Shown here piece after piece: positions 9,439 to 39,350 of a stretch of DNA of 64,000 nt. A model generated the notes under the pieces. That model was given only the letters and a program-made list of their open reading frames with translations. It was not told the origin of the DNA and made no database searches. The DNA comes from Paraflavisolibacter caeni (lineage in GTDB: Bacteria > Bacteroidota > Bacteroidia > Chitinophagales > Chitinophagaceae). The stretch is from the NCBI RefSeq assembly GCF_025628885.1, contig NZ_JAOTIF010000025.1, positions 1-64,000 on the forward strand, written 5' to 3'. Both the position numbers and the translations under genes were made by a program. Each line of letters starts with the position of its first letter. Positions within the stretch are counted from its first letter, which is position 1.

Positions 9439-9485
9439 GTGAGTAAATAAATTTTATTGACAATCATAGATATAAATCTAAGAAA

Positions 9486-11459
9486 ATGAAAAAAATATTA
9501 GGATCCATCTGCTTAGCTGCGGTAATGTTTACCGGTTGTAAGCAGGATTTCCTCGAGGATATGAAGAGCTACGATAAGTTTGATGAGAACTTATTCAAAA
9601 ACCAGGCACAGACAGGCTGGTATATCGACAGGGTGTATTATGATTACTTTTCTGCCTATAAATCGCCAATTGTTACCTTGGTTGGGACATATGACGATGC
9701 TCGTACAAAAATGACGGAAGAGATCGGTGGAACTGTTGGCAATTACATTAATCCTCAGAAGACTTTGGTGAACTCGCAGGATGCAGATGCCTATTATGGC
9801 GCTCCTCTTGCAGCTAGTTTATCGAATAATCCTTATACTCGTATTCGTAACTGTAATGTCCTGTTATCTAAAATAGACTCAGTAGGAAAAGACCTGCCTC
9901 TTTCATTTAGAAAAACATCCCGTGGACAAATGTTTTTACTCAGAGCGCTTCAGTATTTTGATCTGGTACGTGTTTATGGTGGTGTTCCCATCATAACAAC
10001 CGTTCAGGATACCAAAGATGCGCCTGAAACAATTCAAGTGCCTCGTGCAAAATCTTCAGAAGTTTTTGCTCAAATTGTAAAAGACCTTGATTCTGCTGCC
10101 GCTTTATTGCCTATGCAATGGGATGGTGCTAATTTTGGTCGGTTCACAGGTGCAGCTGCGCTGGCTATGAAGAGCCGTGTGTTGCTCACTGCTGCCAGCC
10201 CTTTATTTAATACTAATTGGGATAATTCAAGTGATGCTAAATGGCAAGCGGCATTGGATGCGGGTCTGGCTGCTGAAACAGCGTTGACTAATGCCGGATA
10301 TGGCTTGTATGGTGCTGGTACTACTAAAGGTAAAGATTGGGCTGAAATGTGGTATAAGAATGATAATGCTTTCAACAAAGAAGCTATCATGGTGCAGTTG
10401 TTAACCAATTCTACTTTAAACACAGGCACGAATTTGAATGGTTGGGAAAAATCGATCAGGGTAGCTAAGCAAAAAGGTAGTGGCGGTATTGCTGCTCCTA
10501 AAGAAATGATCGATCTGTTCCCACTGGCAGACGGTACCCGTCCTACTGCTGCAAATGGATACGATGCGCTCAACTTCTTCATGAACAGGGATCCCAGGTT
10601 CTACCGCACGTTTGCTTTCTCTGGTTCTAAGTGGCCAATAGCAGAGACCGATGTACCTTCTGTAATTTGGTTGTACAGATGGAAAAATGGATCCACCCCT
10701 GTTTATAGCGATGGTAACTCCGTGACTAGCCCTGCTGTAGTTTCTAAAATGACAACTCCGAAAGCTAGTTATCTTGTCGGCCTGGATCGTACGGGTACCG
10801 ATATTATGGAATACCGCTATGCAGAGTTGTTATTGAACATTGCTGAATGTTATGCTGCTAAAGGTGATATTGCTAATTGTGTTATTTATCTTGGAAAGAT
10901 TCGTAATCGTGTAGGTATCCCTTCTGCCAACAATTATGGCATTGGCCCCTTAGCTGATAAATATGCTGCTATTGAAGCATGTTTGTACGAGCGTCGTGTT
11001 GAGTTGGCTTATGAAGGCAAACGCTTCTGGGATATTCAACGTTGGATGCTGTATAATGATGACGCTGCCGCAGGTAATAACACCTGTGCCAAATTAGGAA
11101 TTGCTCCAATTAATGGTACCGCTCGCACTGGCCAGCATTGGCAGTATAAAACTACTACTACGAGCAATACTGATCCATTGACGGCTGCAAGGGGTACGAT
11201 CTCTATTGACCCGGATGCTGCTGATTTCCAAACACAATTGCAGGCTCTGAAAACTTTTGTTCAAAACAACATAGTGCTTTCTTCTCCGGATAAACCGATG
11301 GATAATATCAATGGTACATCAGTATCAATTAACTTCAGACAGAACTATTATCTTTCTGGAATAAAAGATAATGTACTTTCTGTGAATCCATGGTTGACAC
11401 AAACTATTGGATGGAATGATTATAGTGGTGCTCTTGGAACATTTGATTATAAACAATAA
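9486..11459 (+). CDS. susD: SusD/RagB-family surface glycan-binding lipoprotein 1
   Basis: This surface lipoprotein captures glycan and caps SusC1. The signal MKKILGSICLAAVMFTGCKQ has its lipobox Cys at position 18. The protein has 657 residues. Typical SusD/TPR features include RGQMFLLRALQYFDLVRVYGG near residues 145-165, YRYAELLLNIAECYA near 445, and the RRVELAYEGKRFWDIQRW motif near 505. The C-terminal NPWLTQTIGWNDY resembles other SusD ends. It is co-transcribed with susC1, and a hairpin follows the stop codon. Confidence 0.94.
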   Translation: MKKILGSICLAAVMFTGCKQDFLEDMKSYDKFDENLFKNQAQTGWYIDRVYYDYFSAYKSPIVTLVGTYDDARTKMTEEIGGTVGNYINPQKTLVNSQDADAYYGAPLAASLSNNPYTRIRNCNVLLSKIDSVGKDLPLSFRKTSRGQMFLLRALQYFDLVRVYGGVPIITTVQDTKDAPETIQVPRAKSSEVFAQIVKDLDSAAALLPMQWDGANFGRFTGAAALAMKSRVLLTAASPLFNTNWDNSSDAKWQAALDAGLAAETALTNAGYGLYGAGTTKGKDWAEMWYKNDNAFNKEAIMVQLLTNSTLNTGTNLNGWEKSIRVAKQKGSGGIAAPKEMIDLFPLADGTRPTAANGYDALNFFMNRDPRFYRTFAFSGSKWPIAETDVPSVIWLYRWKNGSTPVYSDGNSVTSPAVVSKMTTPKASYLVGLDRTGTDIMEYRYAELLLNIAECYAAKGDIANCVIYLGKIRNRVGIPSANNYGIGPLADKYAAIEACLYERRVELAYEGKRFWDIQRWMLYNDDAAAGNNTCAKLGIAPINGTARTGQHWQYKTTTTSNTDPLTAARGTISIDPDAADFQTQLQALKTFVQNNIVLSSPDKPMDNINGTSVSINFRQNYYLSGIKDNVLSVNPWLTQTIGWNDYSGALGTFDYKQ

Positions 11460-11510: not shown

Positions 11511-11583
11511 AATAGACGGTTTTGCTTGCTTGCCGGGATTTTATTGATTTACAAACTTTAAAACAAGTAAACCGAATTTGAAG

Positions 11584-13239
11584 ATGAAAATGAATTTTGT
11601 CAAGTCTTTATTGTTTGCCTCGGCTATCGGAGCAGTACAAACCGTTTCTGCCCAATATCCTGATATCCCAAAGGATGTGAAAGCATGGTCTGATTCGTTG
11701 ATGGAAGCGGCCCGTTTGCATTCCGATTCTGCATGGGAAAAGGCAAAGCCCATCATGGAAAAAGAAGCCATGGAAGGCAAACCTTTTATTCCATGGGCTT
11801 CACGTTATGATGAATTACCTCAAGCCAGTATCCCAGCTTTTCCCGGTGCAGAAGGCGGTGGTAAATACTCCTTCGGCGGTCGTGGTGGTAAAGTATACGT
11901 AGTGACAAATTTGAACGATGATGGTCCCGGAAGTCTGCGTTGGGCATGCGAACAAGGCGGCGCCAGAACCATTGTTTTCAATGTGGCGGGGATCATCCGC
12001 CTGAAAACGCCGTTGATCATCCGTGCTCCTTACATTACCATTGCCGGCCAAACGGCTCCCGGTGATGGAGTTTGTATTGCAGGAGAATCTGTTTGGATCA
12101 ATACCCATGATGTGATCATTCGCTATATGCGTTTCCGCAGGGGCGAAACAAATGTTGGTAGAAGAGATGATGCCATTGGCGGTAACCCAATTGGTAATAT
12201 CATGATTGACCACGTATCTGCCTCCTGGGGATTGGATGAAAACATGTCCATGTACCGGCATATGTATAACGACAGCACCGGCAAAATTGAAGACAAGTTC
12301 GGAACCGTTAATATTACGATCCAGAACTCAATTTTTTCTGAATCATTGGATACCTGGAACCATGCATTTGGCAGTACGCTGGGTGGAGAGAATTGTACGT
12401 TCATGCGCAACCTTTGGGCGAACAATACAGGACGTAACCCATCTGTGGGTTGGAATGGCATCTTCAATTTTGTGAACAACGTGGTTTTCAACTGGGTACA
12501 CCGTTCAATTGATGGAGGAGATTACCGTGCTCAGTTCAATATCATCAACAATTATTTCAAACCAGGTCCTGCTACCCCTAAGAATACACCTGTAGGACAC
12601 CGTATCCTGAAACCTGAGTCTGGTCGTAGTAAACTGAAATACCATGTATATGGAAGGTGCTATGTAAATGGTAATATTATGGAAGGTTATCCGGAGATTA
12701 CAAAAGATAACTGGAATGGTGGCGTTCAGGTGGAAGAAGAAAACAATGCAGGTAAATACACTCCGTTCATGAAGGTGAACAAACCTTTGCCCATGACTGA
12801 GTTGACTATTCTATCTGCACAAGATGCTTTCAATTATGCCATCAATAATGCGGGAGCTACTTTACCAAAAAGGGATGCTGTAGATAAGAGGATTGCTGAG
12901 CAAATCAGAACCGGTAAAATAGATTATAAAGAAGGAGTGAAGTTGCCTGAGACTCAATTCAAGCACCGTCGTTTACCTATCGATTCTTATAAGATTGGCA
13001 TTATCACTGATCCAAGCCAGGTGGGTGGATATCCTGAATATAAAGGAACACCTTACAAAGATTCTGACAACGATGGTATGCCTGATGCATGGGAGATTAA
13101 AGTGGGCTTGAATCCAAACAATGCAGCAGATGCAGGCCTGGATAAAAATAAAGATGGTTATACCAATATTGAAGAATATTTGAATAGTGTAGTAGATCTG
13201 AAAAATGTAAAACCTGTGGTGGCGAAAAAGTCTATTTAA
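11584..13239 (+). CDS. Secreted pectate lyase, PL1-like, with calcium-repeat tail
   Basis: This enzyme probably cleaves homogalacturonan or pectate by beta-elimination outside the cytoplasm. The start used is the ATG at 11584 (551 residues); an in-frame TTG six bases earlier is less likely. A signal peptide spans about 1-23 (AVQTVSA before QYP). The catalytic parallel beta-helix begins at FPGAEGGG (86-93) with SFGGRGGKVYVVTNLND. Family motifs include IAGQTAPGDG, NTHDVIIRYMRFRRGE and IMIDHVSASWGLDENMS. A C-terminal aspartate-rich repeat (DSDNDGMPDAWE, then DKNKDGYTNIEEYLN, from about 493) looks like a thrombospondin-3/dockerin-type calcium site. A close paralogue lies at 25888. Confidence 0.88.
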   Translation: MKMNFVKSLLFASAIGAVQTVSAQYPDIPKDVKAWSDSLMEAARLHSDSAWEKAKPIMEKEAMEGKPFIPWASRYDELPQASIPAFPGAEGGGKYSFGGRGGKVYVVTNLNDDGPGSLRWACEQGGARTIVFNVAGIIRLKTPLIIRAPYITIAGQTAPGDGVCIAGESVWINTHDVIIRYMRFRRGETNVGRRDDAIGGNPIGNIMIDHVSASWGLDENMSMYRHMYNDSTGKIEDKFGTVNITIQNSIFSESLDTWNHAFGSTLGGENCTFMRNLWANNTGRNPSVGWNGIFNFVNNVVFNWVHRSIDGGDYRAQFNIINNYFKPGPATPKNTPVGHRILKPESGRSKLKYHVYGRCYVNGNIMEGYPEITKDNWNGGVQVEEENNAGKYTPFMKVNKPLPMTELTILSAQDAFNYAINNAGATLPKRDAVDKRIAEQIRTGKIDYKEGVKLPETQFKHRRLPIDSYKIGIITDPSQVGGYPEYKGTPYKDSDNDGMPDAWEIKVGLNPNNAADAGLDKNKDGYTNIEEYLNSVVDLKNVKPVVAKKSI

Positions 13240-13297: not shown

Positions 13298-14329
13298 TTA
13301 TAAAGAGTTCCTTAAGTTCAAATAGAAGTTCACTTCAACTTGTTTTATTGCCTGGCTGAGAATTAATTCAGCTGTTTTTTCGCCCAACATTTGAAAATCT
13401 GTGGAGATGGTTGTAATACCATTAAGGAGCACTTTTTTGATAGAGGTTTCATTATAGGAGATGATGCCAATGTCTTCTCCAATAACAAGATTTTCTTCAA
13501 GCGATTTTTCAATCAGTGTTACCAGGTCATCTTCAAGAAGGTTGATATAAACCTCGCCGCGTGCAAGGGGTACTTTTTTAATATCAGAAATGATGTTGTA
13601 ATTAAAGGCATATTCCTGGCAAAAAGCAGTAAAGCCTGTAATGATTTCAGAAGGATAATAAGTATATTCCGGGAATATAATATTAAGAGCATGGTATTTA
13701 CTCAACCTGGGTAAAGCCTGTTCCAAAGAACGATAAATGTCTTTTTCAAAGTTTTCATATACTGCTCTGAAATTTCCTGTTACACGGGGAATAATTTTAT
13801 CTAACAGGATCAATTTATCTTTTGGAATGGTATTGATGAATTTATGAGCGTTTTCCGATCCCTCCAAAAAGTGAGGCATAATAATGTAATAATCATAGTC
13901 CTCCTTACAGTTCAGTAATAGCTTTTTGAATAAGGTAAAATTATTATTATAAACATACATGTCTATAGTGGCTGCATCTCCCAATTTATTGGCAAGGGAT
14001 TCATAAATAATTTTCTTGTGAGCACTAAGCTTATTGAACAACAAGAATATCTTGATGATTTTATCAACGTTAGTATTTTTTACGTAATAACCCTTTCCCG
14101 GAAAAGAACCAATAATGCCAGTTTTCTTTAAATGCTTATAGGCTTTTTCTACACTGTCTCTTGAAATTTCAAACTCAAAACTTAATTCATTGATAGATGG
14201 CAGTGGGTCATCAATATTCAGCTTCTCTGTTGCAATAGCTTTGATAATTGAGTTAACTAACTGCTGGTATTTTGGCATCGCAGAATATTCATCTATATGA
14301 ATCAATTTATAGAAAGGATGAGAGGTCAT
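13298..14329 (-). CDS. GntR-family transcriptional regulator with sugar-binding-type sensor
   Basis: The product has 343 residues. The N-terminal winged helix-turn-helix (about residues 15-85) contains MPKYQQLVNSIIKAIATEKL, DPLPSINELSFEFEISRDSV and EKAYKHLKKTGIIGSFPGKG, the classic GntR layout. The remaining 250 residues resemble the periplasmic-binding-protein/LacI-like sensor found on GntR regulators in Bacteroidota (GEDIGIISYNETSIKKVLLNGITTISTDFQMLG near the C-terminus). It is divergent from the aldolase/kinase operon, so it probably controls that operon in response to an intermediate or the substrate. The module 2 site at 14443 and its twin at 20615 are the best operator candidates. Activator or repressor cannot be told from sequence. 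Confidence 0.9.
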   Translation of the reverse strand: MTSHPFYKLIHIDEYSAMPKYQQLVNSIIKAIATEKLNIDDPLPSINELSFEFEISRDSVEKAYKHLKKTGIIGSFPGKGYYVKNTNVDKIIKIFLLFNKLSAHKKIIYESLANKLGDAATIDMYVYNNNFTLFKKLLLNCKEDYDYYIIMPHFLEGSENAHKFINTIPKDKLILLDKIIPRVTGNFRAVYENFEKDIYRSLEQALPRLSKYHALNIIFPEYTYYPSEIITGFTAFCQEYAFNYNIISDIKKVPLARGEVYINLLEDDLVTLIEKSLEENLVIGEDIGIISYNETSIKKVLLNGITTISTDFQMLGEKTAELILSQAIKQVEVNFYLNLRNSL

Positions 14330-14600: not shown

Positions 14601-15812
14601 ATGCTGATTGACATTTTGCCTGTTAAGGATAAACAGAATTTAAAAGAGCTGTTGCCGAATGTAGAAATTCCTGAATTAAAAATACACTTTCCGGGGAAAG
14701 TGGTTTTTGGAAATGATTCATTGAAATACTTACCCGATGAATTGCTTCAGCTTTCCGCATCCAGAGTATTTATCTTAACTATAGCACCGTTACTTCCGCA
14801 AATACAGGATTGTACAGCAAAGCTGAAAGACCTGGGAGTGGAGGTATATACAGATACCAGTATAATCAAAGAGCCATATTTTAGTGACTTTGATAGCATC
14901 ATGAAAAAGGTTGAGTTGTTACATCCAGATGTTGTAGTAGGTATAGGTGGCGGAAGTGTACTGGATGTCGCCAAGCTGATTGCCGCTCAACTGGAAAATG
15001 AGCAATCTCTTCAGGAGTATGTTGGTATTAACTTACTAAAAAGCAGAAAGAAAAAACTGGTTTGTATACCGGCAACATCCGGAACTGGAAGTGAAGTTTC
15101 TCCTAATGCTATATTAGTTGATGATTTGGATAATCAAAAAAAAGGGATCATTAGTCCATATCTGGTACCAGATATGGTATTGGTTGATCCTTTATTGACC
15201 ATTTCAATGCCGCCTGATATTACGGCTGCAACCGGACTGGATGCATTAACACACTGTTTGGAAGCTTATACCAATAAGTTTGCTCATCCATTAATAGATG
15301 TATATGCTTTTGAAGGCATGCGGCAGATAGTTGCTAACCTGGAACTGGCAGTAAAAGAGGGGTCGAATAAGGATGCAAGAGCAGCTGTTGCGATGGGAAG
15401 TTTATTGGGGGGATTTTGTTTAGGTCCGGTTAATACTGCCGGTGTGCATGCATTGTCGTATCCCCTTGGCAGTAATTTTCATTTGCCTCATGGTCTTTCT
15501 AATGCCATACTTTTACCCTATGTAATGGAGTTTAACCTGCCTTCAGCCATTAGCCGGTATGCTCAAGTAGCTATTGCTTTAGGCTGTTGCAGAGAGGAGA
15601 GCGAGGAGGCCACGGCTTATAAAGGTATTGAAAGAATAAAGCGTTTAATAGAAGCATGTGGAATACCTGCAAGGCTACGTGACGTAGGTGTGCCGGAGCA
15701 GGCTATTCCGGAAATGGCTACGGCAGCATTGAAAATAACACGGTTGTTGAAAAACAATCCTCGTACTATAACCATAGAAGATGCCATTGGCATTTATCAA
15801 GCAGCTTATTAA
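14601..15812 (+). CDS. Iron-containing alcohol dehydrogenase
   Basis: This is a cytoplasmic group III (iron-dependent) alcohol dehydrogenase of 403 residues. The nucleotide motif GIGGGSVLDVAK is at about 114-125. CIPATSGTGSEVSPNAILVD follows, and the metal-site segments TGLDALTHCLEAY, HALSYPLGSNFHLPHGLSNA and LPYVMEFN are present. It is the first gene of an operon with an aldolase two bases downstream. Family members reduce or oxidise small hydroxy-aldehydes, including lactaldehyde and succinate semialdehyde. Here I infer that it reduces the four-carbon aldehyde-acid released by the aldolase to a tetronate. A role on lactaldehyde from deoxysugars is the main alternative. Confidence 0.92.
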   Translation: MLIDILPVKDKQNLKELLPNVEIPELKIHFPGKVVFGNDSLKYLPDELLQLSASRVFILTIAPLLPQIQDCTAKLKDLGVEVYTDTSIIKEPYFSDFDSIMKKVELLHPDVVVGIGGGSVLDVAKLIAAQLENEQSLQEYVGINLLKSRKKKLVCIPATSGTGSEVSPNAILVDDLDNQKKGIISPYLVPDMVLVDPLLTISMPPDITAATGLDALTHCLEAYTNKFAHPLIDVYAFEGMRQIVANLELAVKEGSNKDARAAVAMGSLLGGFCLGPVNTAGVHALSYPLGSNFHLPHGLSNAILLPYVMEFNLPSAISRYAQVAIALGCCREESEEATAYKGIERIKRLIEACGIPARLRDVGVPEQAIPEMATAALKITRLLKNNPRTITIEDAIGIYQAAY

Positions 15813-15814
15813 CT

Positions 15815-16750
15815 ATGCGTCCGAAAAAATATACAGGTGTTTTTGTCCCGGTAGTTACTCCTTTAACCGCAGATCATCAATTAGATGAAAATGCAGTGGA
15901 AAAATTGTTGCGCAATTTTCAGCAGGAAAATGTTGTACCATTTATCCTGGGTACTACTGGTGAAGTTGCTTCACTGCCGTTAAGTGTGAAAAGGAATTAT
16001 ATAAAGAAGGCTGTAAGCCTAAAAAGAAGGGATGATCTCATTTTTGCGGGTGTTTCTTCCAATTGCCTGCAGGAATCTGTAGAACTGGCTAAATATTGTT
16101 TTGATTCTGGTATAGATGCGGTGGTGGCTACACTGCCAGCTTATTTTAGTCTTACAGAAAATGAGATGCTGAATTATTTTGAAACTTTGACAGAAAAAGT
16201 GGCTGGTCCGGTGATCATATATAACATTCCTGCAACCACACACATGTCCATCCCTCTGAAAATAATCGAAACATTGAGTTATCATCAGCATATTGTTGGT
16301 ATAAAAGATTCTGAAAGAAGTGAAGATCGGTTACTGGAATCGCTCCAGCTTTGGTCTCAACGTGAGGACTTTTCCCATTTGATCGGCTGGGCGGCTAAAT
16401 CAGCCAAAGCCCTTTTGAATGGCAGTGACGGATTGGTGCCCAGTACAGCAAATTTTTGTCCGGGGCTTTACCGGCAGTTGTATGAGGCAGGGCGCAAGGG
16501 CAATCAGGAAATAACTGAGGCCCTGCAACGTGTATCTGATGATCTTGGGAATATTTATCAGAGTGGGCGAACATTAGGTACCTCATTATGGGCATTAAAA
16601 GTGATTCTACAGGAAGAGGGGCTATGCCAGCCTTATGTGATGCCGCCGCTCCTTGATCAGGATGAAAAAGAAGCAGAAATTGTAAAGTTGCAGTGGAAGC
16701 AAATAAAAGAGCATTTATTAATAAACAAAGAAAAAGTGCAAATTGTATAA
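15815..16750 (+). CDS. DHDPS/N-acetylneuraminate lyase-family aldolase
   Basis: This class I pyruvate-type aldolase has 311 residues. The pyruvate-binding GTTGE is at 46-50, the catalytic Tyr is in IIYNIPATT (Tyr136), and the Schiff-base Lys is in IVGIKDSE (Lys164). The family catalyses aldol addition to, or release of, pyruvate. In an operon with an alcohol dehydrogenase, a tetronate-type kinase and PdxA2, biosynthetic DapA is unlikely and cleavage of a 2-keto-3-deoxy sugar acid is more likely. A C7 diacid such as Dha would yield pyruvate and a C4 aldehyde-acid. It begins two bases after the preceding stop codon, so translation is probably coupled. Confidence 0.9.
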   Translation: MRPKKYTGVFVPVVTPLTADHQLDENAVEKLLRNFQQENVVPFILGTTGEVASLPLSVKRNYIKKAVSLKRRDDLIFAGVSSNCLQESVELAKYCFDSGIDAVVATLPAYFSLTENEMLNYFETLTEKVAGPVIIYNIPATTHMSIPLKIIETLSYHQHIVGIKDSERSEDRLLESLQLWSQREDFSHLIGWAAKSAKALLNGSDGLVPSTANFCPGLYRQLYEAGRKGNQEITEALQRVSDDLGNIYQSGRTLGTSLWALKVILQEEGLCQPYVMPPLLDQDEKEAEIVKLQWKQIKEHLLINKEKVQIV

Positions 16751-16760
16751 AAATATTGGT

Positions 16761-17795
16761 ATGTCATTAAAACCAATTATTGGTATTACCATGGGTGATC
16801 CGGCTAGTATCGGACCCGAAATCGCCGTAAGGGCTTTGCTCGAAGAAAAGATATACAATATCTGCAGGCCTTTAATAGTAGGTGATGCTGGTGTTTTTCA
16901 ATATATTATTGACCATTTGCAGCTGGACGTTTCCATTCGTCCTGTGCAAAATGTAGCTGAGGCAAAGTTTGAAAGAGGCGTGATCGACGTATTGGATCTG
17001 CATAATGTTGACCTGCAAAATTTGGAATGGGGAAAGATTTCAGCCATGGCAGGTAATGCTTCGTTTGAGGCAGTAAAGACAGTTATTGACCTGGCATTAA
17101 ATGGTGAAGTAGATGCGACAGTAACTGGGCCTATCAATAAAAAATCAATCAATGAGGCTGGTCATCATTTTGCCGGGCATACCGAAATTTATGCGCATTA
17201 TACCGGTACGAATAAATATGCCATGTTGCTTGTAGAAGACAACATGAAAGTGATCCATGTCTCAACACATGTTTCGCTACGCCAGGCCTGTGACCTGGTT
17301 AAAAAAGAACGCATTCTGGAAGTGGTTCATCTGCTGCATGATGGTTTGCTGCAATTAGGTGAATCGAATCTGAAGATTGGCGTTGCAGGTTTAAACCCGC
17401 ATGCTGGTGATTCCGGGTTGTTTGGTACAGAGGATGAACAGGAAATTGAACCAGCCGTGCAGGAAGCCAGAATTCAAGGTTTTGATGTTGAAGGTCCTGT
17501 TCCTGCTGACACGTTATTTTCAAAAGCGGCTACAGGTCATTTTGGAGGTATTGTGGCCATGTATCACGACCAGGGGCATATACCCTTTAAACTCTCTGGC
17601 TTTAAATGGAATGCTCAAAAAGGACAGATGGAAAGTGTAAAAGGAGTGAACATTACTATGGGCCTGCCTATTATCAGAACATCTGTAGATCATGGAACTG
17701 CATTTGAAATTGCAGGCAAAGGTGTCGCTAGTCCCGATGCAATGATCTTAGCCATTGAATCTGCTGTTCAGTTATGTCAAAATAAAAAAAATTAA
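16761..17795 (+). CDS. pdxA2: PdxA2-like 4-phospho-D-threonate dehydrogenase
   Basis: The product belongs to the PdxA family, about 344 residues from the ATG at 16761; an upstream TTG at 16743 overlaps the preceding gene. Family motifs are GITMGDPASIGPE at the N-terminus, the metal-site HFAGHTEIYAH near 132-142, GLNPHAGDSGLFG and MYHDQGHIPFKL. PdxA makes a vitamin B6 intermediate, but PdxA2 paralogues next to DUF1537 kinases oxidatively decarboxylate 4-phospho-D-threonate to DHAP. The next gene here is that kinase, so the catabolic PdxA2 role is favoured. Confidence 0.85.
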   Translation: MSLKPIIGITMGDPASIGPEIAVRALLEEKIYNICRPLIVGDAGVFQYIIDHLQLDVSIRPVQNVAEAKFERGVIDVLDLHNVDLQNLEWGKISAMAGNASFEAVKTVIDLALNGEVDATVTGPINKKSINEAGHHFAGHTEIYAHYTGTNKYAMLLVEDNMKVIHVSTHVSLRQACDLVKKERILEVVHLLHDGLLQLGESNLKIGVAGLNPHAGDSGLFGTEDEQEIEPAVQEARIQGFDVEGPVPADTLFSKAATGHFGGIVAMYHDQGHIPFKLSGFKWNAQKGQMESVKGVNITMGLPIIRTSVDHGTAFEIAGKGVASPDAMILAIESAVQLCQNKKN

Positions 17796-17805
17796 ATATC
17801 AAACA

Positions 17806-18963
17806 ATGATTGTTGTACTTGCCGACGATCTGACCGGGGCTGCAGAATTAGGGGGTATTGCTTTACATTATAATCTGGATATTGAAATAAACATGTCCGT
17901 GAATCCCCGATCCAACGCCAATTTCCTGATTATCTCTACTGATACCCGTGCGATGCCCAAAGAAAAAGCTGGAGTGGAAGCGGCTAAGGCTACTGCCAAA
18001 GCCATGAAGTTGAAGCCCAAAATGATTTTTAAGAAAATCGACTCAGTATTGAGGGGGCATATATTACCAGAAATAAATGCTCAATTGAAACAATTGAATT
18101 TGCATAAAGCTTTACTGGTACCGGCTAATCCTGCTTTGGGCAGAACCCTTACAAATGGGATGTATTATATCAATGGTCAACCGATTCATGAGAGCGGTTT
18201 TTCCAAGGACCCCGAGTTTGCCATAAAAAGTTCAAGAGTGGCAGATATGCTGCATGCACATGATGAACCTTTATATGTGATAAGCAACCAGGAGCCTTTA
18301 CCGGAATCTGGTATCATAGTGGGTGAAGCCCAAACAACTGATGATTTAAATAGATGGGCATCTCAAATAGACACAGATACATTGATCGCTGGTGCTGCAG
18401 GTTTCTTTTCTGCGCTATTAGATAAAATGAATCTAGAACCTAGAACCAGTATTGAAAGCGAGGATACAATTTTTGGCAAACCTGCCTTGTTTGTTTGCGG
18501 AACAGCTTTTGGAAAAAGTGTTGAAGCAATAAAAAGTATAAAAAAGAAAGGTGGACCGGTGAGTTATATGCCTAAAGAAATTATAGCATCCTCCAATCCG
18601 GCAGATTCTTATTACCAGCAATGGAGTGATGAAGTGGTTTCTTTACTGGCTGCTAAAGGAAAGGCCATCATCGCTATTGATGAAAAAACCACTAAGGATA
18701 TTGACTTAAGTACCGCTGATTTACGGGAAAAGACAGCCCAGGCAGTTGAATACATCCTGGAGAAAGTGTATGTCCGTGAACTGTTGGTAGAAGGAGGATC
18801 TACGGCATCCACCATTATTAAAAAGCTGCAGTTCAATCGCTTTTTCCCAATCAAAGAATTAATGCCTGGTGTGATCCGTATGAGTGTAGAAGGGAAGGAT
18901 GATTTTTACCTGACCCTTAAGCCAGGAAGTTATGACTGGCCTGCTCACATCTGGAAGTTTTAA
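17806..18963 (+). CDS. dtnK: DUF1537 four-carbon acid-sugar kinase (D-threonate kinase-like)
   Basis: The start used is the ATG at 17806 (385 residues). A TTG-led extension from 17755 overlaps pdxA2 and is unlikely. The N-terminal IVVLADDLTGAAELGG is the DUF1537 hallmark. The C-terminal domain carries LLVEGGSTASTIIKKL and GVIRMSVEGKDDFYLTLKPG, the nucleotide-binding part. Characterised members phosphorylate D-threonate, L-threonate or D-erythronate at O4. Pairing with PdxA2, and the absence of OtnI/OtnC partners, points to D-threonate. Confidence 0.87.
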   Translation: MIVVLADDLTGAAELGGIALHYNLDIEINMSVNPRSNANFLIISTDTRAMPKEKAGVEAAKATAKAMKLKPKMIFKKIDSVLRGHILPEINAQLKQLNLHKALLVPANPALGRTLTNGMYYINGQPIHESGFSKDPEFAIKSSRVADMLHAHDEPLYVISNQEPLPESGIIVGEAQTTDDLNRWASQIDTDTLIAGAAGFFSALLDKMNLEPRTSIESEDTIFGKPALFVCGTAFGKSVEAIKSIKKKGGPVSYMPKEIIASSNPADSYYQQWSDEVVSLLAAKGKAIIAIDEKTTKDIDLSTADLREKTAQAVEYILEKVYVRELLVEGGSTASTIIKKLQFNRFFPIKELMPGVIRMSVEGKDDFYLTLKPGSYDWPAHIWKF

Positions 18964-18983
18964 CTATAGATTAATTGCACCAT

Positions 18984-20576
18984 ATGAATACCTCTTTACA
19001 TCTGATTGATTATTCAATCATAGTCCTTTTGTTGTTGGTAACTCTTTCGTTCGGTTTGCGATTTGCGAAACGGCAGAAGAGTACGCAAAGCTATTTTCTC
19101 GCCAAGGGTAGAATTCCCGCCTGGGCTATTGGCATGTCCTTGTTGGCAACATTGATTAGTTCGGTTACTTTTTTTGCCTATCCTGCTGAAGGATATACCT
19201 CTAATTGGATTCTGCTGGTGCAGGGGCTGATGGTACCCATTGCATTAATGGGTACTATATGGTTTATTGTGCCTTTGTACCGCAAGGTGATCCGGTTAAG
19301 CACATATGAATATTTCGAAAAACGTTTTGGCCTGTTTGCCAGGTACTACAGTTCTGTGGCCTTTGTATTAAGGCAGTTTTCAGGTATGGGCACTGTTTTT
19401 TTTCTTTTAGGACTTGCGTTATCCCAAATGACCGGAGTCAATACAATGGGCATTATTATCCTTGTAGGACTGATCATAATTGCAGTAAACTTATTAGGGG
19501 GGATTGAAGCAGTGATTTGGCTGGATGTATTTCAAGGCTTTATGTTGTTTGCCAGCGGGTTGATATGTATCGGAGTCTTACTATTTTCTGTTGACGGTGG
19601 ACCGGCTGCCGTATGGCAGATTGCCAAGGCCAACAATAGAACAGGTTTTGGTCCATATAAGCTGGATTTTACGCAACTCACATTTGTGGTTATGGCAATT
19701 AACGGGCTCTTTTATGCTATTCAAAAGTATGGCACTGATCAAACAGTTGTACAACGTTACTTAACAGCCAAAACAGACAAAGCAGCGATCCGCGCTTCCC
19801 TGCTGGGTATATTGCTGACTGTGCCGGTTTGGATGCTATTCATGTTTATAGGTACGGCATTATTTGTTTTTTACAAGCAAAACGCATTACCTGGACATAT
19901 ACATGACGCAGCTGTTTTCCCTCATTTTATTATAACACAATTGCCCACCGGAGCGATTGGATTTATTATGGCTGCTATGATCTCTGCCGCTATTTGCAGC
20001 TTAAGTGCAGACTTGAATTCACTGGCCGCAGTTGGTGTAGAAGACTATTACAAAAAAATCAGGTCCAACAGGAATGAAAAAGAGTATCTGTTTGCTGGAA
20101 AGCTGATCGTTGTGTTTTCAGGAATATTAGCTATTGGAATAGGTTGCCTTTACTTGTTAGCTGGTAATGAAGGTGTTCTGGGTATTGTATTCACGCTTTA
20201 TGCCATTTTCTCAGGTGGCATAGTCGGAATATTTTTACTGGGGCTATTCAGTGCCCGAGCCAACCGGCAAGGCGTAACTATCGGAATTATTGTGTGTATA
20301 CTTTTTACCGCCTATGCATTACTTACTTCAACAAAGATGGGCTTAGGTGAAAATAAATCATTACTACTTGACTTGGGTGCATATAATTTCAGTCATCATA
20401 AGTTGATGTTAGGGGTATATAGTCACCTGATTGTGATAGGTGTTGGTTATGTAGCAAGCCTTTTCTTTCCTAAGCCAGTTTTAGATAAAAATCTATTGTA
20501 TAGCGGTTGGCGGGAAGGCCGAAAGAAAGAACGGCTAATAAAAAATACAGCTGAAAAGAAAAAAGTAACTGTTTGA
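18984..20576 (+). CDS. Sodium/solute symporter (SSS family) of the acid-sugar operon
   Basis: This inner-membrane transporter has about 530 residues from the ATG at 18984, with roughly 13 hydrophobic helices. Typical SSS motifs are YFLAKGRIPAWAIGMSLLA near 35-53, SSVTFFAYPAEGY, GGIEAVIWLDVFQG near 175, FYAIQKYGTDQTVVQRYLTA and AAMISAAICSLSADLNSLAA. It is the last gene of the operon, so it probably imports the monomeric acid sugar, which is inferred to be Dha or a tetronate. A lysine-rich tail ends the protein. No clear terminator follows. Confidence 0.9.
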   Translation: MNTSLHLIDYSIIVLLLLVTLSFGLRFAKRQKSTQSYFLAKGRIPAWAIGMSLLATLISSVTFFAYPAEGYTSNWILLVQGLMVPIALMGTIWFIVPLYRKVIRLSTYEYFEKRFGLFARYYSSVAFVLRQFSGMGTVFFLLGLALSQMTGVNTMGIIILVGLIIIAVNLLGGIEAVIWLDVFQGFMLFASGLICIGVLLFSVDGGPAAVWQIAKANNRTGFGPYKLDFTQLTFVVMAINGLFYAIQKYGTDQTVVQRYLTAKTDKAAIRASLLGILLTVPVWMLFMFIGTALFVFYKQNALPGHIHDAAVFPHFIITQLPTGAIGFIMAAMISAAICSLSADLNSLAAVGVEDYYKKIRSNRNEKEYLFAGKLIVVFSGILAIGIGCLYLLAGNEGVLGIVFTLYAIFSGGIVGIFLLGLFSARANRQGVTIGIIVCILFTAYALLTSTKMGLGENKSLLLDLGAYNFSHHKLMLGVYSHLIVIGVGYVASLFFPKPVLDKNLLYSGWREGRKKERLIKNTAEKKKVTV

Positions 20577-20874: not shown

Positions 20875-23859
20875 ATGATTCAAAAATTGAAAAGAAGCTT
20901 TCTTTGCTTCATGCTTTTATTGGGCTGTAATTGTTTGTTTGCACAGCAAAAAACAGTGTCTGGTAAAATCATTGACCAGGAAACCGGGCAACCTCTAACG
21001 GGAGTAACAGTTAATGTAAAAGGTTCAACCCAAAATGTACTTACTAAAGAAGATGGTTCCTTCTCTATTACTATACCATCTAATCAATCCGTACTGCTTG
21101 TAAGCTATGTTGGTTATGGGAGTCAGGAATTGCCTGTTGGCAATAAATCTACTATTACGCTTACCATGACGAATACCAATAAGAAGTTGGATGAAGTAGT
21201 AGTGATTGGTTATGGAACTGTGAGAAAGCGTGATTTAACAGGGGCTGTTGTTTCTGTAAAAGGAGAGGAGGTAACGAAAGTGCCTGCTACCACCCCGATG
21301 GAAGCGATCCAGGGAAAAATTCCAGGAGCTGACATTTACAGGGATAATGGGTACGCGGGACAAGGTGCGAATGTTAGAATTCGTGGTACGCGTTCTATAG
21401 GGAACCCCGGAAGTTCAAACAATGTATTATACATTGTTGATGGCGTGCAGGGAGTTAATATGGCTGATATCAATCCTAATGATATCCAATCTATAGAGGT
21501 GTTGAAAGATGCTTCTTCCACTGCTATTTATGGTTCCCGTGGTGCCAATGGAGTGGTGATTATTACTACCAAAAGAGGTACAACTGGTAAAGCCAAATTG
21601 TCTTTTAATACATATTCAGGTATATCCAAAGTGGCCGGTTATGGCGAGTTTCAGAATGGACCTGAATATGTGGCATTCAAAAGAGAGGCTTTTAGAGCTG
21701 CAGGTACCTGGAACAGTCCTGCCGATGATTCCAAGATTTTTAATGCGGCTCAGTTAGCTGCCATTCAAAATGAGCAATATGTGGACTGGCAGGATCTGCT
21801 TCAGAATAAAGGAGCACAGCAAGACTACCAAATCGGTGTTGCAGGCGGTACTGATAAAACCAAAGTATATTTTTCTGCAGGCTATTTTCATGAGAAAGGA
21901 ATTCTGAAGTTGGATGAATACAAACGGTATACAGGTAGATTTAATATCGACCAGACCATTAACAACTGGATGAAAGTAGGGATCAACTCACAATTAGCTT
22001 ATATTGACAATGATATCAGACGCGATCCTTTCAACCAGGCATCTAAAACGCCGCCTATTGGTTCCGCTTATGATTCTGCTGGTAATTTTATTCTTTATCC
22101 TAATGGAGGCAGTGAAATTAATCCGCTTGCTGATCAACAGCCAGGGCAATGGGACAGGAATACAAAAACAACCCGTTTTTCTGCTGCTACTTATCTTGAA
22201 TTGACCCCAATCAAAGATTTAAGCATTAAGTCTACTTTCTCTACAACCCAATCAAGTGCAGCAGCAGGCTGGTTTTATGGAAAAAACACGATTGATGGCA
22301 AAGGAGCCAACTCTCAATCACAAATTACCAATTCGCAAAGCAGCTTTATCAGCTGGGAAAATCTGCTGAATTATAAAAAACAAATAGGTGATCATTCGAT
22401 TACATTAACAGGTGTGACCAGCTACTTGCAAACAATCAATACCAGCAGTTTTGCAGGAGGTAAAAATCAAATATTCGAATCGCAATCATTTTACAACATT
22501 GGAAGTGCTTCTCAACAACCTTTCTGGGGAAGTGGCTACAATAAACAGAACCTGGTTTCCTTTACTGGCAGGGCTAATTACAGTTATTTAGGTAAATACC
22601 TGCTGACACTTACGGGACGCAGTGATGGTTCTTCAAAATTGGGAACAGGTAATAAATGGGCGTTTTTCCCTTCTGCAGCTTTAGGTTGGAGAATTGTTGA
22701 TGAAGGATTTATGGATAATCAGGATTTATTCAGCGATCTGAAATTAAGAGCTAGCTATGGTATTTCGGGAAATGATGTGATCTCTCCCTACGCTACACAA
22801 AATTCTCTAACCCTGATTCCTTTCTCTTATAATGATGCCAATGCTGCTGTTGCTTATGGTATTAACACAACTATTGGCAATGATGCATTAGAGTGGGAAT
22901 TGACAGCAACAAAGGATCTAGGATTGGATTTCAGTATTTTGAAAAACAGGATAAGTGGAAATATAGATTATTATGATGCATTGACTTCAAATCTTATATT
23001 CCCATATACTTTGCCAGGTTCAACAGGTGTTTCTACGATCAACCGCAATGTAGGAAAAACAAGGAACCGCGGTATTGAGGTTGGTATCACCACACATAAT
23101 ATTACCAATAAGGCATTTACATGGTCCAGCAATGTCACCTTTACGAAGAATAAGGAGAAAATTGTTGAATTGCCCAATGGAGATGTAATTGACAATGATT
23201 ACCGCAAGTCATTGATTTTGGGGCAGTCTCCAACTATTTACTATGATTATAAGAAAATTGGCATCTGGCAGTTGGGTGAAGAAGCTGAGGCAGCAAAATA
23301 CAATGCAATTCCGGGAGATATTAAGATAGCCGATATATCCGGACCAGACGGTAAGCCTGATGGAGCCATTACTTCGGCTGATCGTACCTATATTGGAACT
23401 AGAGTGCCTAAATGGACTGGAGGCTTGAATAACGATTTCAAATACAAAGGCTTTGATTTGAACGTTTTCATCTTTGCCCGCGTTGGCCAGTGGATGAGCT
23501 CTGATTATTATGCAAAATTTGTTCGCAACGGAAGTCAGAATAGTGCTCGAGTTGACTACTGGACACCAGAAAATCCAACCAACGCCTATCCTCGCCCGCA
23601 TGCAACAAGGAGTTCTTCTTATGTAACCACATTGACTGAATTTGAAAATTCATATGTAAAACTCAGGAATGTTACATTGGGTTATACGTTGCCCAAAGAC
23701 ATCAGCAGCAGGTTTAAAATGGACAATTTAAGAGTGTATGTATCAGGTAAAAATCTTGGCTGGATCTCCAACAAGAAAGACTTTGACCCTGAAAGTGAAG
23801 GCATCATTGATCAGCCATTGTCCAAATTATTTGTTGCCGGTTTGAATGTTACTTTCTAA
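20875..23859 (+). CDS. susC: SusC/RagA-family TonB-linked outer-membrane transporter 2
   Basis: This is a 994-residue outer-membrane transporter. Its signal peptide ends at FAQ (about residue 24). A carboxypeptidase-regulatory-like domain spans about 27-100. The TonB-box region DEVVVIGYGT is at 106-115, the plug has TPMEAIQGKIPGADI, and the YGSRGANGVVIITTKRG signature is present. The C-terminus ends in VAGLNVTF. It is clearly a different lineage from SusC1 (123 residues shorter). A promoter shared with the aldolase operon suggests its ligand yields the sugar that operon consumes. Confidence 0.95.
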   Translation: MIQKLKRSFLCFMLLLGCNCLFAQQKTVSGKIIDQETGQPLTGVTVNVKGSTQNVLTKEDGSFSITIPSNQSVLLVSYVGYGSQELPVGNKSTITLTMTNTNKKLDEVVVIGYGTVRKRDLTGAVVSVKGEEVTKVPATTPMEAIQGKIPGADIYRDNGYAGQGANVRIRGTRSIGNPGSSNNVLYIVDGVQGVNMADINPNDIQSIEVLKDASSTAIYGSRGANGVVIITTKRGTTGKAKLSFNTYSGISKVAGYGEFQNGPEYVAFKREAFRAAGTWNSPADDSKIFNAAQLAAIQNEQYVDWQDLLQNKGAQQDYQIGVAGGTDKTKVYFSAGYFHEKGILKLDEYKRYTGRFNIDQTINNWMKVGINSQLAYIDNDIRRDPFNQASKTPPIGSAYDSAGNFILYPNGGSEINPLADQQPGQWDRNTKTTRFSAATYLELTPIKDLSIKSTFSTTQSSAAAGWFYGKNTIDGKGANSQSQITNSQSSFISWENLLNYKKQIGDHSITLTGVTSYLQTINTSSFAGGKNQIFESQSFYNIGSASQQPFWGSGYNKQNLVSFTGRANYSYLGKYLLTLTGRSDGSSKLGTGNKWAFFPSAALGWRIVDEGFMDNQDLFSDLKLRASYGISGNDVISPYATQNSLTLIPFSYNDANAAVAYGINTTIGNDALEWELTATKDLGLDFSILKNRISGNIDYYDALTSNLIFPYTLPGSTGVSTINRNVGKTRNRGIEVGITTHNITNKAFTWSSNVTFTKNKEKIVELPNGDVIDNDYRKSLILGQSPTIYYDYKKIGIWQLGEEAEAAKYNAIPGDIKIADISGPDGKPDGAITSADRTYIGTRVPKWTGGLNNDFKYKGFDLNVFIFARVGQWMSSDYYAKFVRNGSQNSARVDYWTPENPTNAYPRPHATRSSSYVTTLTEFENSYVKLRNVTLGYTLPKDISSRFKMDNLRVYVSGKNLGWISNKKDFDPESEGIIDQPLSKLFVAGLNVTF

Positions 23860-23876
23860 CGATTAACTAAAAAAAT

Positions 23877-25520
23877 ATGAAAATCAATATAAAGAAGTTA
23901 TTGCCATTTTTACTTGTAGTATCCTTAACGGAGTCTTGTAAAAAAGAATTAGAGGAATATAATCCAAGCGGTGCAACTGTAGAGAGTTTATTTAAAACAC
24001 CAGAAGGGTTTGAGTCTGCTGTAAATGCCACCTATACTTATAATAGGAATTTATATGGTAAAGAAGAAGGCTATGCCATGCTTGAAATGGGAACTGATAT
24101 TTGGACGAATGCTGCCTTTAATGGCAGCACAGGTATCAATGGAATTTTTCCACAGACACCACTAACGACTTACCAGGGATTGATTTCTGACAATTTATGG
24201 GTGAATACCAAAATGTGGCAACCTTGTTATTCAGCGATTAATTTGTGCAATACCGGGTTGAAATACATTGATAACGCAGGATTGAATGCCGCAAGAAAGC
24301 CTGTACTTGAAGCGGAAATGCGTTTCATGAGGGCATGGTATTATTATCACCTGGTAGAAACATTTGGTGATATCCACTTTACGCTGGAACCAACTGAAGG
24401 GATGGTTACTACAGCTAATCGCACCTCTGTTGAAACTATCTACAAACAGATTTTTGAAGACGTAGAATCTGCTGTAGCTAATCTTCCTGTCACTACCAAT
24501 GATTATGGCAGGATTACCAAGCCTGCTGCAGAGGCGTTCCTTGCAAAATTGTATTTAACCAGAGGCAGAAACCAGGAAGCGAGTGATTACGCGAAAAAGG
24601 TAATCACTGGTTATAATTTTAAATTGTTGACTAATTATGCCGATCTGTGGAATATCAACAATCAAAAGAATGCAGAAGTGCTTTGGGCAGTGAATTATTC
24701 TACCAACCTGGCCAATAATGCCGGTAGCAATTTAGGACATAGTTTATTTTTAATGGAGTATAATACCTTACCAGGCATGTTACGTGATGTGGCCAATGGA
24801 TTTCCCAATGTGCGCTATATGCCTACAAGATCACTCATTCAGATGTTCGATGACCAAAACGATGCTCGCTATAATGCTTCATTTAAATCGGTTTGGTACG
24901 CAAATGAGCCTGATGCCAGCAAACGCCCGGCAGGCATGAATGTAGGAGATACTGCTATTTTTGTATCAAAGAATGTTATATCTGCTGCCGAACGGACCAG
25001 TAAGAAATATAAAGTATATGATATTAATGATGTCTATGATGCCAATGGCTTACCTAAAGATCGTTTTCACTTCCTTTCTTTAAAGAAATTTGATGATCCA
25101 ACCAGGGGTTCTGCTACAGAAACCCAAAGCTCCAGGGATGCTTTTATACTCCGTCTTGCTGACATGTATCTTGTAGCTGCTGAGGCTCAATTCAAACTAG
25201 GCAAATTAGATTCTGCTGCCTACTTTGTGAATGAGGTAAGAAAACGTGCTGCTTTGCCTGGTAAGCAAGCTGCAATGCAGATAGCACCAGCAGATGTGAA
25301 TATGGACTTTATTTTAGATGAAAGGGCCCGCGAATTTGCTGGAGAACAGATGCGCTGGTATGATCTGAAAAGAGCTGGTAAATTGGTGGAAAGAGTTAAA
25401 AAATACAATCCTGATGCGGCAGTTAATATTAAGGACTTCCATATTTTAAGACCGATTCCTCAGGCTCAGCTGGACGCGGTAACCAATAAATCTGAGTTCA
25501 AGCAGAACCAGGGTTATTAA
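23877..25520 (+). CDS. susD: SusD/RagB-family surface glycan-binding lipoprotein 2
   Basis: This is the 547-residue partner of SusC2, starting 17 bases after its stop codon. The lipobox LTESC places the lipidated Cys at 21. Typical SusD helices are AEMRFMRAWYYYHLVETFGD near 145-165 and LRLADMYLVAAEAQFKLGK near 425. The C-terminal ERAREFAGEQMRWYDLKR-type motif and the ending IPQAQLDAVTNKSEFKQNQGY are standard for the family. A terminator follows about 58 bases after the stop. Confidence 0.95.
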   Translation: MKINIKKLLPFLLVVSLTESCKKELEEYNPSGATVESLFKTPEGFESAVNATYTYNRNLYGKEEGYAMLEMGTDIWTNAAFNGSTGINGIFPQTPLTTYQGLISDNLWVNTKMWQPCYSAINLCNTGLKYIDNAGLNAARKPVLEAEMRFMRAWYYYHLVETFGDIHFTLEPTEGMVTTANRTSVETIYKQIFEDVESAVANLPVTTNDYGRITKPAAEAFLAKLYLTRGRNQEASDYAKKVITGYNFKLLTNYADLWNINNQKNAEVLWAVNYSTNLANNAGSNLGHSLFLMEYNTLPGMLRDVANGFPNVRYMPTRSLIQMFDDQNDARYNASFKSVWYANEPDASKRPAGMNVGDTAIFVSKNVISAAERTSKKYKVYDINDVYDANGLPKDRFHFLSLKKFDDPTRGSATETQSSRDAFILRLADMYLVAAEAQFKLGKLDSAAYFVNEVRKRAALPGKQAAMQIAPADVNMDFILDERAREFAGEQMRWYDLKRAGKLVERVKKYNPDAAVNIKDFHILRPIPQAQLDAVTNKSEFKQNQGY

Positions 25521-37940: not shown

Positions 37941-38024
37941 TTATTAAACAGATGTTAATTGAACATAAACGATCATTGATTGAATCATATCTAAGTTGTT
38001 GATTAAAGAATGACAAGAAGAACT

Positions 38025-39210: not shown

Positions 39211-39276
39211 ATGGTGTATGGATGGTGTATAGATGAAGCATAGATGGTGTATGGATAGTGTATGGGGAGTGTATGA
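39211..39276 (+). repeat. 11-base tandem repeat array 1
   Basis: Six consecutive 11-base units run head to tail: ATGGTGTATGG, ATGGTGTATAG, ATGAAGCATAG, ATGGTGTATGG, ATAGTGTATGG and GGAGTGTATGA. They lie between two cluster genes. A related array on the opposite strand is at 54710. The 11-base period is close to one helical turn. The GTG-led extension of the next gene starts inside the array, which argues against that start. Confidence 0.85.
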
Positions 39277-39350
39277 AAATGGTTCCGGCGCAGTCAGGCC
39301 CAATTGAAAAATATAGTAGACTGCAGATGCTAAAAAATCATATATCTAAG

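Follow-up and report, generated by a model that had tools for sequence, protein, structure and literature searches.

A five-gene operon of Paraflavisolibacter caeni was analyzed, which lies in a stretch of 64,000 nucleotides (contig NZ_JAOTIF010000025.1, positions 1 to 64,000; hereafter the window) and encodes an iron-containing alcohol dehydrogenase (Fe-ADH), an aldolase of the dihydrodipicolinate synthase/N-acetylneuraminate lyase (DHDPS/NAL) type, a PdxA paralogue, a DUF1537 kinase and a sodium:solute symporter (SSS). From genomics and chemistry we predict with good confidence that the operon serves the degradation of Dha (3-deoxy-D-lyxo-2-heptulosaric acid), a seven-carbon acid of rhamnogalacturonan II (RG-II), through D-threonate. 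Its parts are of known families; their combination, the substrate assignment and the distribution appear to be new. According to a preliminary description of the window, no Dha route of this kind is known to have been described, and no catabolic route for Dha was found among the papers listed in the literature searched, most subscription papers being outside its scope.

RG-II is found in the primary walls of plants and in human food. The RG-II degradation locus of Bacteroides thetaiotaomicron (BT1020/GH143 and others) was reportedly described by Ndeh et al. in 2017, and the window resembles it in its GH143, GH141, apiosidase, rhamnosidase-like and esterase-like genes and its SusC/SusD-type pairs. 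It differs in that the locus itself encodes catabolism of a monosaccharide, whereas the control Bacteroides ihuae has no DUF1537 gene. The catabolism of D-threonate by DtnK (DUF1537) and PdxA2 to dihydroxyacetone phosphate (DHAP) is said to have been worked out by Zhang et al. in 2016. The pair of kinase and PdxA, the expected entry as DHAP and the clustered transporter are common to that system and the window, but the window adds the aldolase and Fe-ADH and its proteins miss the curated cut-offs; because of the two added enzymes, D-threonate would be an intermediate of the window operon rather than its nutrient.

Sialic acid catabolism, with its NanA aldolase, NanQ anomerase and SSS-type transporters, offers a further likeness, as there too pyruvate is removed from a 2-keto-3-deoxy acid, itself freed by a sialidase-fold enzyme, by a class I lyase that shares the fold of the window aldolase, and clusters of E. 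coli and Pantoea discussed below carry a YhcH-family gene. The other half of the molecule would however be a C4 aldehyde acid and not an aminosugar, the downstream enzymes differ, and Ala193/Ala194 stand at the positions of NanA Asp191/Glu192. The D-apionate pathway with OiaK and a RuBisCO-like protein, reportedly from Carter et al. in 2018, likewise uses a DUF1537 kinase for one RG-II sugar and lies beside RG-II genes in some relatives; the window kinase is of another subfamily, PdxA takes the place of the RuBisCO-like protein, and the aldolase and Fe-ADH are additional. The region GR 6 of E. coli BEN2908 and the pdxA-like cluster of Sinorhizobium meliloti (PMC12928451) share Fe-ADH, a DHDPS-family gene, DtnK, PdxA2 and a sialidase-like gene with the window, whereas gene order, transporter and aldolase subfamily differ, and the passages of PMC12928451 on these genes give no reading in terms of Dha or RG-II.

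The operon and its predicted pathway

The five genes had been described as one tight operon, and all of them were found on the forward strand (Table 1), with intergenic gaps of 2, 10, 10 and 20 bases for the ATG starts chosen here. The mechanical starts were TTG at 16743 (PdxA), 17755 (kinase) and 18975 (symporter), and the PdxA query for the family and motif searches began at 16764, one codon after the ATG at 16761. The GntR gene named together with the operon is real and divergent, but its homologue occurs at only 1 of 80 related loci, so the regulator is not a conserved part of the operon.

In the proposed route the symporter would import Dha, and the aldolase, forming a Schiff base with its lysine, would split Dha into pyruvate and D-threuronate, as suggested by its fold, its catalytic residues and the stereochemistry. 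D-threuronate would be reduced by Fe-ADH with NADH to D-threonate, which the DUF1537 kinase would phosphorylate to 4-phospho-D-threonate, and the PdxA paralogue would convert this to DHAP by oxidative decarboxylation with return of the NADH; the last two reactions are known for their families. In net, Dha and ATP would give pyruvate, DHAP, CO2 and ADP in a redox-neutral way. A Fischer check confirmed the earlier claim that the D-lyxo configuration leads to D-threonate: retro-aldol cleavage of 3-deoxy-D-lyxo-2-heptulosarate followed by reduction gives this acid, and the atoms balance to pyruvate, DHAP and CO2. Each gene would then have one job, as had been proposed.

The family assignments were examined gene by gene. 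The best NCBIfam models for Fe-ADH were ErcA (263 bits) and then lactaldehyde reductase (230 bits), both far under their cut-offs, and its metal-ligand motifs GLDALTHCLE and HALSYPLGSNFHLPHG are present. The catalytic motifs GHTE and MYHDQG of PdxA and ADDLTGA, KKIDSVLRG and GGSTA of the kinase were also found intact. Both DUF1537-family domains of the kinase, SBD_N and NBD_C, exceed their cut-offs (PF07005 128.4 bits against 25, PF17042 34.8 against 28.3), and the symporter reaches 209 bits with TIGR00813, above the cut-off of 184. The genome has two PF04166 genes, one in the operon beside the DUF1537 kinase and a separate pdxA at G000:C1:32442, which is the arrangement of the PdxA2 type. It also has three other DHDPS-family genes, the best of which (C1:912385) scores 276 bits against about 143 for the operon aldolase; with these and the second pdxA in the genome, the aldolase and PdxA copies of the operon are extra ones.

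The aldolase was compared in an alignment of 92 rows, 87 of them distinct (5 duplicates). K164, Y136 and GTTGE (46-50) are identical in all 92 rows, so that the Schiff-base lysine, the catalytic tyrosine and the GxxGE motif of the class I DHDPS/NAL enzymes are present, together with the TIM barrel. At the position of E. coli DapA Arg138 a threonine (Thr141) stands in 92 of 92 rows, and the window aldolase scores 139.3 bits with the dapA model, under the cut-off of 206.15, which places it outside DapA. Position 143 is histidine or arginine in 91 of 92 rows, where DapA, NanA, YagE and YjhH have glycine, and conserved arginines follow the catalytic lysine (R168 in 90 rows, R172 in 92). The positions of NanA Asp191 and Glu192 are mostly alanine (86/92 and 76/92). 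Our hypothesis from this alignment is that the window-type aldolase may have lost the polyol contacts and gained positive charge for the distal carboxylate, with R168, R172 and H143 as predicted contacts of the C7 carboxylate.

The AlphaFold model of the aldolase (mean predicted local distance difference test, pLDDT, 94) gave template modelling scores of 0.82-0.89, normalized to the query, over the 50 NAL, YagE and DHDPS structures listed, and its nearest folds were N-acetylneuraminate lyase 5c54, the B. thetaiotaomicron DHDPS 4xky and YagE. Sequence searches of the PDB with the aldolase, the kinase and the sialidase-fold protein of the window found distant relatives only. In the plasmid search with the window aldolase every match was under 60% identity, and the 40 matches listed were at about 26-32%.

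Association with RG-II loci

The window holds an RG-II degradation locus, with GH143, GH141, apiosidase, rhamnosidase-like, GH43-like, DUF6298, sialidase-fold, esterase-like and pectate-lyase-like genes together with SusC/SusD-type pairs, and the operon lies between a pectate-lyase-like gene and the second of these pairs. Residues 22-614 of the GH143-type protein align to the N-terminal half of BT1020 (5mqr) with an E value of 6.5e-233, and it is the sole match to the GH143 Dha-hydrolase domain in the genome; the N-terminal beta-propeller of BT1020 is what we take to be the GH143 domain. The protein is thus a GH143 homologue with a predicted role as Dha hydrolase. According to the relevant passage of PMC6811678, GH143 was created for a B. 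thetaiotaomicron enzyme which removes Dha from RG-II through a site in a five-bladed propeller, the enzyme being bimodular and not named in that passage. The sialidase-fold protein is 30% identical over 365 amino acids to its sialidase-like counterpart in the E. coli cluster described below. Its AlphaFold model has a pLDDT of 83, and Foldseek returned first a protein of unknown function and then mostly sialidases; it is a candidate glycosidase for 2-keto-3-deoxy acids.

Co-occurrence was surveyed in 396 genomes sampled evenly across the order, with strong GH143 defined as above 340 bits and the operon aldolase at an E value of 1e-60. GH143 was strong in 31 genomes (36 at E 0.001), and the aldolase occurred in 13, all of which are among the 31 (Fisher p 2.7e-16). 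At genus level it was present in 9 of 16 GH143 genera and in 0 of 148 others (p 6e-11), though the sampled genomes are related and both p-values overstate their independence. In 11 of these 13 genomes the distance between aldolase and GH143 is 13-26 kb. DUF1537 was above its cut-off in 21 of the 396 genomes, 16 of which have strong GH143, and the regions around 13 short-type DUF1537 genes other than that of the window were inspected, 11 of them carrying all five genes in order. One genome without GH143 (G392) had only a distant kinase (30%) and PdxA (50%), with neither aldolase nor Fe-ADH.

A second scan was made by searching named GTDB genomes with the aldolase alignment and taking the best 80 of 160 relatives with up to 10 kb on each side; the genera include Mucilaginibacter, Pedobacter, Sphingobacterium, Spirosoma, Pontibacter and Lacibacter. 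At least five of these genomes (with identical aldolases) are also in the order sample, so the two samples are not fully independent. Homologues of Fe-ADH were found at 78 of the 80 loci, PdxA at 79, the kinase at 76 and the symporter at 72 (71 if only matches above 50% identity are counted). All five were together at 69, which argues that the combination is not due to chance. Of the 11 loci with fewer genes, six are truncated at the end of a contig, four (L060, L064, L105 and L128) are without the symporter, and the last is a locus of a Segetibacter metagenome-assembled genome (MAG), L100. Within the fetched stretches, sialidase-fold and esterase-like genes were each present at 43 loci and GH143 and GH141 each at 14. 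In the whole genomes GH143 was found in 79 of 80, namely in 50 of 50 of the first batch, among which G415 has a partial match where a contig ends, and in 29 of the remaining 30; the first 50 include all 37 whose stretch has no sialidase-fold gene. The genome with no GH143 match is a MAG of 3.1 Mb, the locus of which (L111) has GH78-, sialidase-, esterase- and GH141-type genes. The neighbours of the operon at L099, with no RG-II markers, and in G047 (L033) gave no clear clue. With 13 of 13 genomes of the order and 79 of 80 in the second scan, the comparison with GH143 and RG-II loci proposed in the preliminary description came out strongly positive.

Ten of the 18 GH143 genomes without the aldolase were opened. 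The order sialidase-fold, esterase, sugar-isomerase-like is kept in eight of their RG-II loci, and this is the slot which holds the operon in many relatives, though not in the window, where the operon lies elsewhere in the locus; the slot is empty of matches in five, and another cassette is present in G095, G195 and G201. The stretch of G391 has no esterase and that of G107 neither sialidase-fold gene nor esterase. Since eight of these ten loci are otherwise collinear, the operon has the look of an optional cassette that serves a single released sugar. The other cassette has a second DHDPS-like gene, which was found at 23 of the 80 loci and which lacks the GTTGE motif in the two copies aligned. 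It lies between the sialidase-fold gene and the operon, or fills the slot without the operon in the three genomes, with a symporter there as well as at L036 (3928-6544) and L041 (3238-6653, also with an FAA-hydrolase-like gene). Our guess is that this cassette may be for Kdo (3-deoxy-D-manno-octulosonic acid) or another RG-II sugar.

Other features of the window are given in Table 1. Two similar pectate-lyase-like proteins flank the operon, each after a SusC/SusD-type pair, and neither has a Pfam match at E 0.001. In nine of the ten opened RG-II stretches without the operon, a homologue of the DUF6298 protein is found close to GH143. A xylose-isomerase-like gene (40857-41822) may act on a different RG-II sugar; at 36 of 80 loci its homologue is close to the operon. 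An enolase-superfamily gene (49673-50746) is also within the locus.

Table 1. Features of the window and their assignments
Feature	Position	Strand	Matches and assignment
Iron-containing alcohol dehydrogenase	14601-15812	+	PF00465/PF25137; predicted to reduce D-threuronate (2,3-dihydroxy-4-oxobutanoate) to D-threonate
DHDPS/NAL-type class I pyruvate aldolase	15815-16750	+	PF00701 143.7 bits; predicted Dha aldolase
PdxA paralogue (PdxA2 type)	16761-17795	+	PF04166 347.4 bits; predicted 4-phospho-D-threonate dehydrogenase
DUF1537 four-carbon acid sugar kinase	17806-18963	+	PF07005 128.4 bits, PF17042 34.8 bits; predicted D-threonate kinase
Sodium:solute symporter	18984-20576	+	PF00474 121.8 bits; predicted inner-membrane Dha importer
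Divergent GntR-type regulator	13298-14329	-	PF00392 43 bits; possible local regulator
GH143-type Dha hydrolase homologue	33193-35064	+	PF24067 415 bits; BT_1020 N-terminal beta-propeller and CBM-like domain
Sialidase-fold protein (BNR_2), signal-peptide-like start	38010-39152	+	PF13088 307 bits; candidate 2-keto-3-deoxy acid glycosidase
Esterase-like protein	39258-40739	+	PF22244 29.6 bits, PF05448 25.6 bits, barely over cut-offs
GH141-type enzyme	41832-43751	+	PF21231 243 bits
Apiosidase-like enzyme	30845-32242	+	PF13204 393 bits
First SusC/SusD-type pair	6085-11459	+	Open reading frames 6085-9438 and 9486-11459; judged by sequence
Second SusC/SusD-type pair, directly downstream of the operon	20875-25520	+	Open reading frames 20875-23859 and 23877-25520; judged by sequence
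Pectate-lyase-like protein	11578-13239	+	NCBIfam PelZ 138.3 bits, cut-off 840
Second pectate-lyase-like protein, resembling that at 11578-13239	25888-27546	+	NCBIfam PelZ 138.5 bits, cut-off 840
DUF6298 protein, 1054 amino acids	27653-30817		836 bits

Parallel clusters in other bacteria

A comparable set of genes is present in E. coli CFT073 (NC_004431, 738713-747692; L004), where an SLC13 permease, YhcH, a sialidase family protein, DHDPS, Fe-ADH, D-threonate kinase and D-threonate 4-phosphate dehydrogenase are annotated; a TerC-family gene is also included. The kinase (533 bits, cut-off 450) and PdxA (681.6 bits, cut-off 583) of this cluster exceed the curated D-threonate models, and its aldolase retains the DapA arginine, unlike the window type. 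The cluster was found in 1044 of 5426 complete E. coli genomes. The gene list given for E. coli in PMC12928451 is CitT-like, NanQ-like, sialidase-like, DapA, Fe-ADH, DtnK-like and PdxA2-like.

The E. coli aldolase was matched in 235 plasmid records, five of which were examined. All enzymes of the set, together with a sialidase-like gene, are present in the Comamonadaceae and Azospirillum records and in Pantoea ananatis pPANA10 (L053), where the kinase was seen only as a 67-amino-acid match near 8375. The full set was not found in Roseomonas mucosa (L056), which had aldolase and Fe-ADH only, nor in Chelatococcus (L057), which had no sialidase match. From 303 records in which the E. coli sialidase-like protein was matched, ten were examined, and nine of them also match the aldolase, Fe-ADH, PdxA and kinase: S. 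meliloti, two Rhizobium, Agrobacterium, Roseomonas gilardii, Qingshengfaniella, Subdoligranulum, a phycosphere Sinorhizobium and Pararhizobium. The kinase of R. gilardii (L151, 3085-4346) and the PdxA of Qingshengfaniella are in two pieces; in the Pantoea and R. gilardii records the kinase is partial and its partner genes are annotated whole. The tenth, the archaeal Halomontanus (L157), had the sialidase-like gene only (28%) and no other member of the set. On the Subdoligranulum variabile plasmid (L153, 4474-10134) SLC13-, Fe-ADH-, aldolase-, PdxA- and sialidase-like genes stand in a row with a kinase match at the edge of the locus, hinting at possible Dha use in gut Firmicutes.

The transporters of these clusters are variously annotated as SLC13, SSS or ABC, and the best aldolase match in the nine clusters is the E. 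coli one, at 42-45% identity in five and at 25-29% in four. As transporters and aldolases differ between clusters, the gene set seems to be held together by function. The alignment of seven proteobacterial sialidase-like proteins has no signal-like N-terminus of the kind seen in those of Bacteroidota, so they may act in the cytoplasm. In root-nodule bacteria and E. coli the Dha route seems to occur again, assembled from enzymes that are in part different. We lean, with moderate confidence, towards the wider proposal that Dha use via D-threonate is widespread and was assembled more than once from different DHDPS-family aldolases. In Bacteroidota from soil and plants it would be a cassette within RG-II loci or next to them. 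In Proteobacteria associated with plants, in about one fifth of the complete E. coli genomes and in a gut Clostridium it would be a cluster for scavenging, with a sialidase-like, apparently cytoplasmic Dha glycosidase.

Alternative substrates and significance

Several observations weigh against Dha use by the operon or against its wider distribution. GH141 was strong in 28 genomes of the order, all within the 31 with GH143, and in 13 of 13 with the aldolase, so it tracks the operon as well as GH143 does and the association does not single out Dha among the RG-II sugars. In 18 of the 31 GH143 genomes there is no aldolase, and Bacteroides ihuae is without DUF1537 although both GH143 and GH141 are present, so that GH143 is not dependent on this route. 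The operon is 0.65 and 1.9 Mb from GH143 in G047 and G187, 19 of the 80 loci had none of nine RG-II-locus markers in the fetched stretch, and G316 has four operon genes with no Fe-ADH match. At L100 (about 10001-10885) aldolase and symporter homologues stand beside RG-II-type genes, with no Fe-ADH, PdxA or kinase match in a stretch that is uncut there. The window and E. coli aldolases are 25.5% identical, and no GH143 was found on the five proteobacterial plasmid records searched. The best NCBIfam model of the window kinase is D-threonate kinase DtnK (NF047819, judging by its name a model of the gamma-type enzyme) at 119.9 bits, where the cut-off is 450, with 71 bits for 3-oxotetronate kinase, and the window PdxA reaches 322 bits with the D-threonate 4-phosphate dehydrogenase PdxA2 (NF002891), where the cut-off is 583. 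Of the pair DUF1537 and PdxA2, assigned earlier as leading from D-threonate to DHAP, the E. coli counterparts pass the curated models, whereas both window proteins fall below them. The Dha interpretation itself is supported by RG-II linkage and stereochemistry; the genomic part of this evidence is linkage to RG-II and not to Dha. Co-occurrence ties the operon to RG-II generally, and the Dha step rests on chemistry and on the sialidase-linked clusters.

As the co-occurrence is with RG-II in general, the operon could serve another of its unusual acids, Kdo or aceric acid, with DUF1537 and PdxA acting on a product other than threonate. The sialidase-fold gene adjoining the operon in many relatives could release Kdo, and lactaldehyde, of which the reductase model was second for Fe-ADH although far below its cut-off, could be a cleavage product of aceric acid. 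This is nevertheless unlikely. Aldol cleavage of Kdo gives pyruvate and D-arabinose by the Fischer check, which leaves DUF1537 and PdxA without a task, and Kdo was rejected as the sole substrate on this ground. The second DHDPS-like and SSS cassette, present without the operon in three of ten RG-II loci, is a freer candidate for Kdo, and the match of the E. coli counterparts to curated D-threonate models speaks against both acids.

It is also improbable that the substrate is some other 3-deoxy-2-ulosaric acid or C4 acid that arises from pectin or when plant ascorbate is broken down, such as D-erythronate or L-threonate, with the RG-II neighbours being incidental. DUF1537 and PdxA families act also on D-erythronate and other tetronates. 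DtnK and DenK are both summarised in PMC10971088. By the Fischer check 3-deoxy-D-xylo-heptulosarate would yield D-threonate as well. A tetronate pathway of importer, kinase and PdxA needs however neither aldolase nor Fe-ADH, yet Fe-ADH is present at 78 of 80 loci, and the finding of GH143 in 79 of 80 genomes is at odds with incidental neighbours.

Apiose is an RG-II sugar, and its known route uses the DUF1537 kinase OiaK (3-oxo-isoapionate kinase). With an apiosidase-like gene in the window and OiaK being of the DUF1537 family, the operon might be an apiose or apionate module. The window kinase had no OiaK match in the NCBIfam scan and there is no RuBisCO-like gene in the operon, while a longer DUF1537 type adjoins a RuBisCO-like gene elsewhere in the same genome (G000:C23, OiaK 469 bits) and in the RG-II region of G047 (378 bits; cut-off 700), where this pair lies beside RG-II-locus genes. 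At G000:C23, about 115129-119900 (L048, 8330-13101), and at L047, 6855-11679, an OiaK-like kinase, a RuBisCO-like protein, an Asp/Glu racemase-like protein and an SBF-type transporter stand together, probably as an apionate (apiose) cassette separate from the window operon. The apiose reading is largely refuted by such a cassette elsewhere in the genome, and it is very unlikely.

It is equally hard to credit that the genes are housekeeping paralogues of dapA, pdxA and adh for lysine or vitamin B6 synthesis, as their family names, the ability of PdxA2 to perform the PdxA reaction (PMC9997740) and the vitamin B6 reading of the E. coli kinase/PdxA pair in PMC12928451 might suggest, since a higher-scoring DHDPS gene and a second pdxA are present in the genome, the aldolase is without the DapA arginine and below the dapA cut-off, and the operon follows RG-II genes.

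For the degradation of Dha through D-threonate, a complete and redox-neutral route of five genes with a named intermediate makes the fate of the released Dha directly testable. If the prediction is true, it would assign a function to the E. coli cluster and to clusters of Bacteroidota and rhizobia whose genes are at present named after lysine or vitamin B6. It would also point to an exchange of Dha as a nutrient between bacteria that degrade pectin and others of plants and the gut, and if the route is as widespread as proposed, RG-II fragments or free Dha would feed bacteria which are unable to degrade RG-II themselves.

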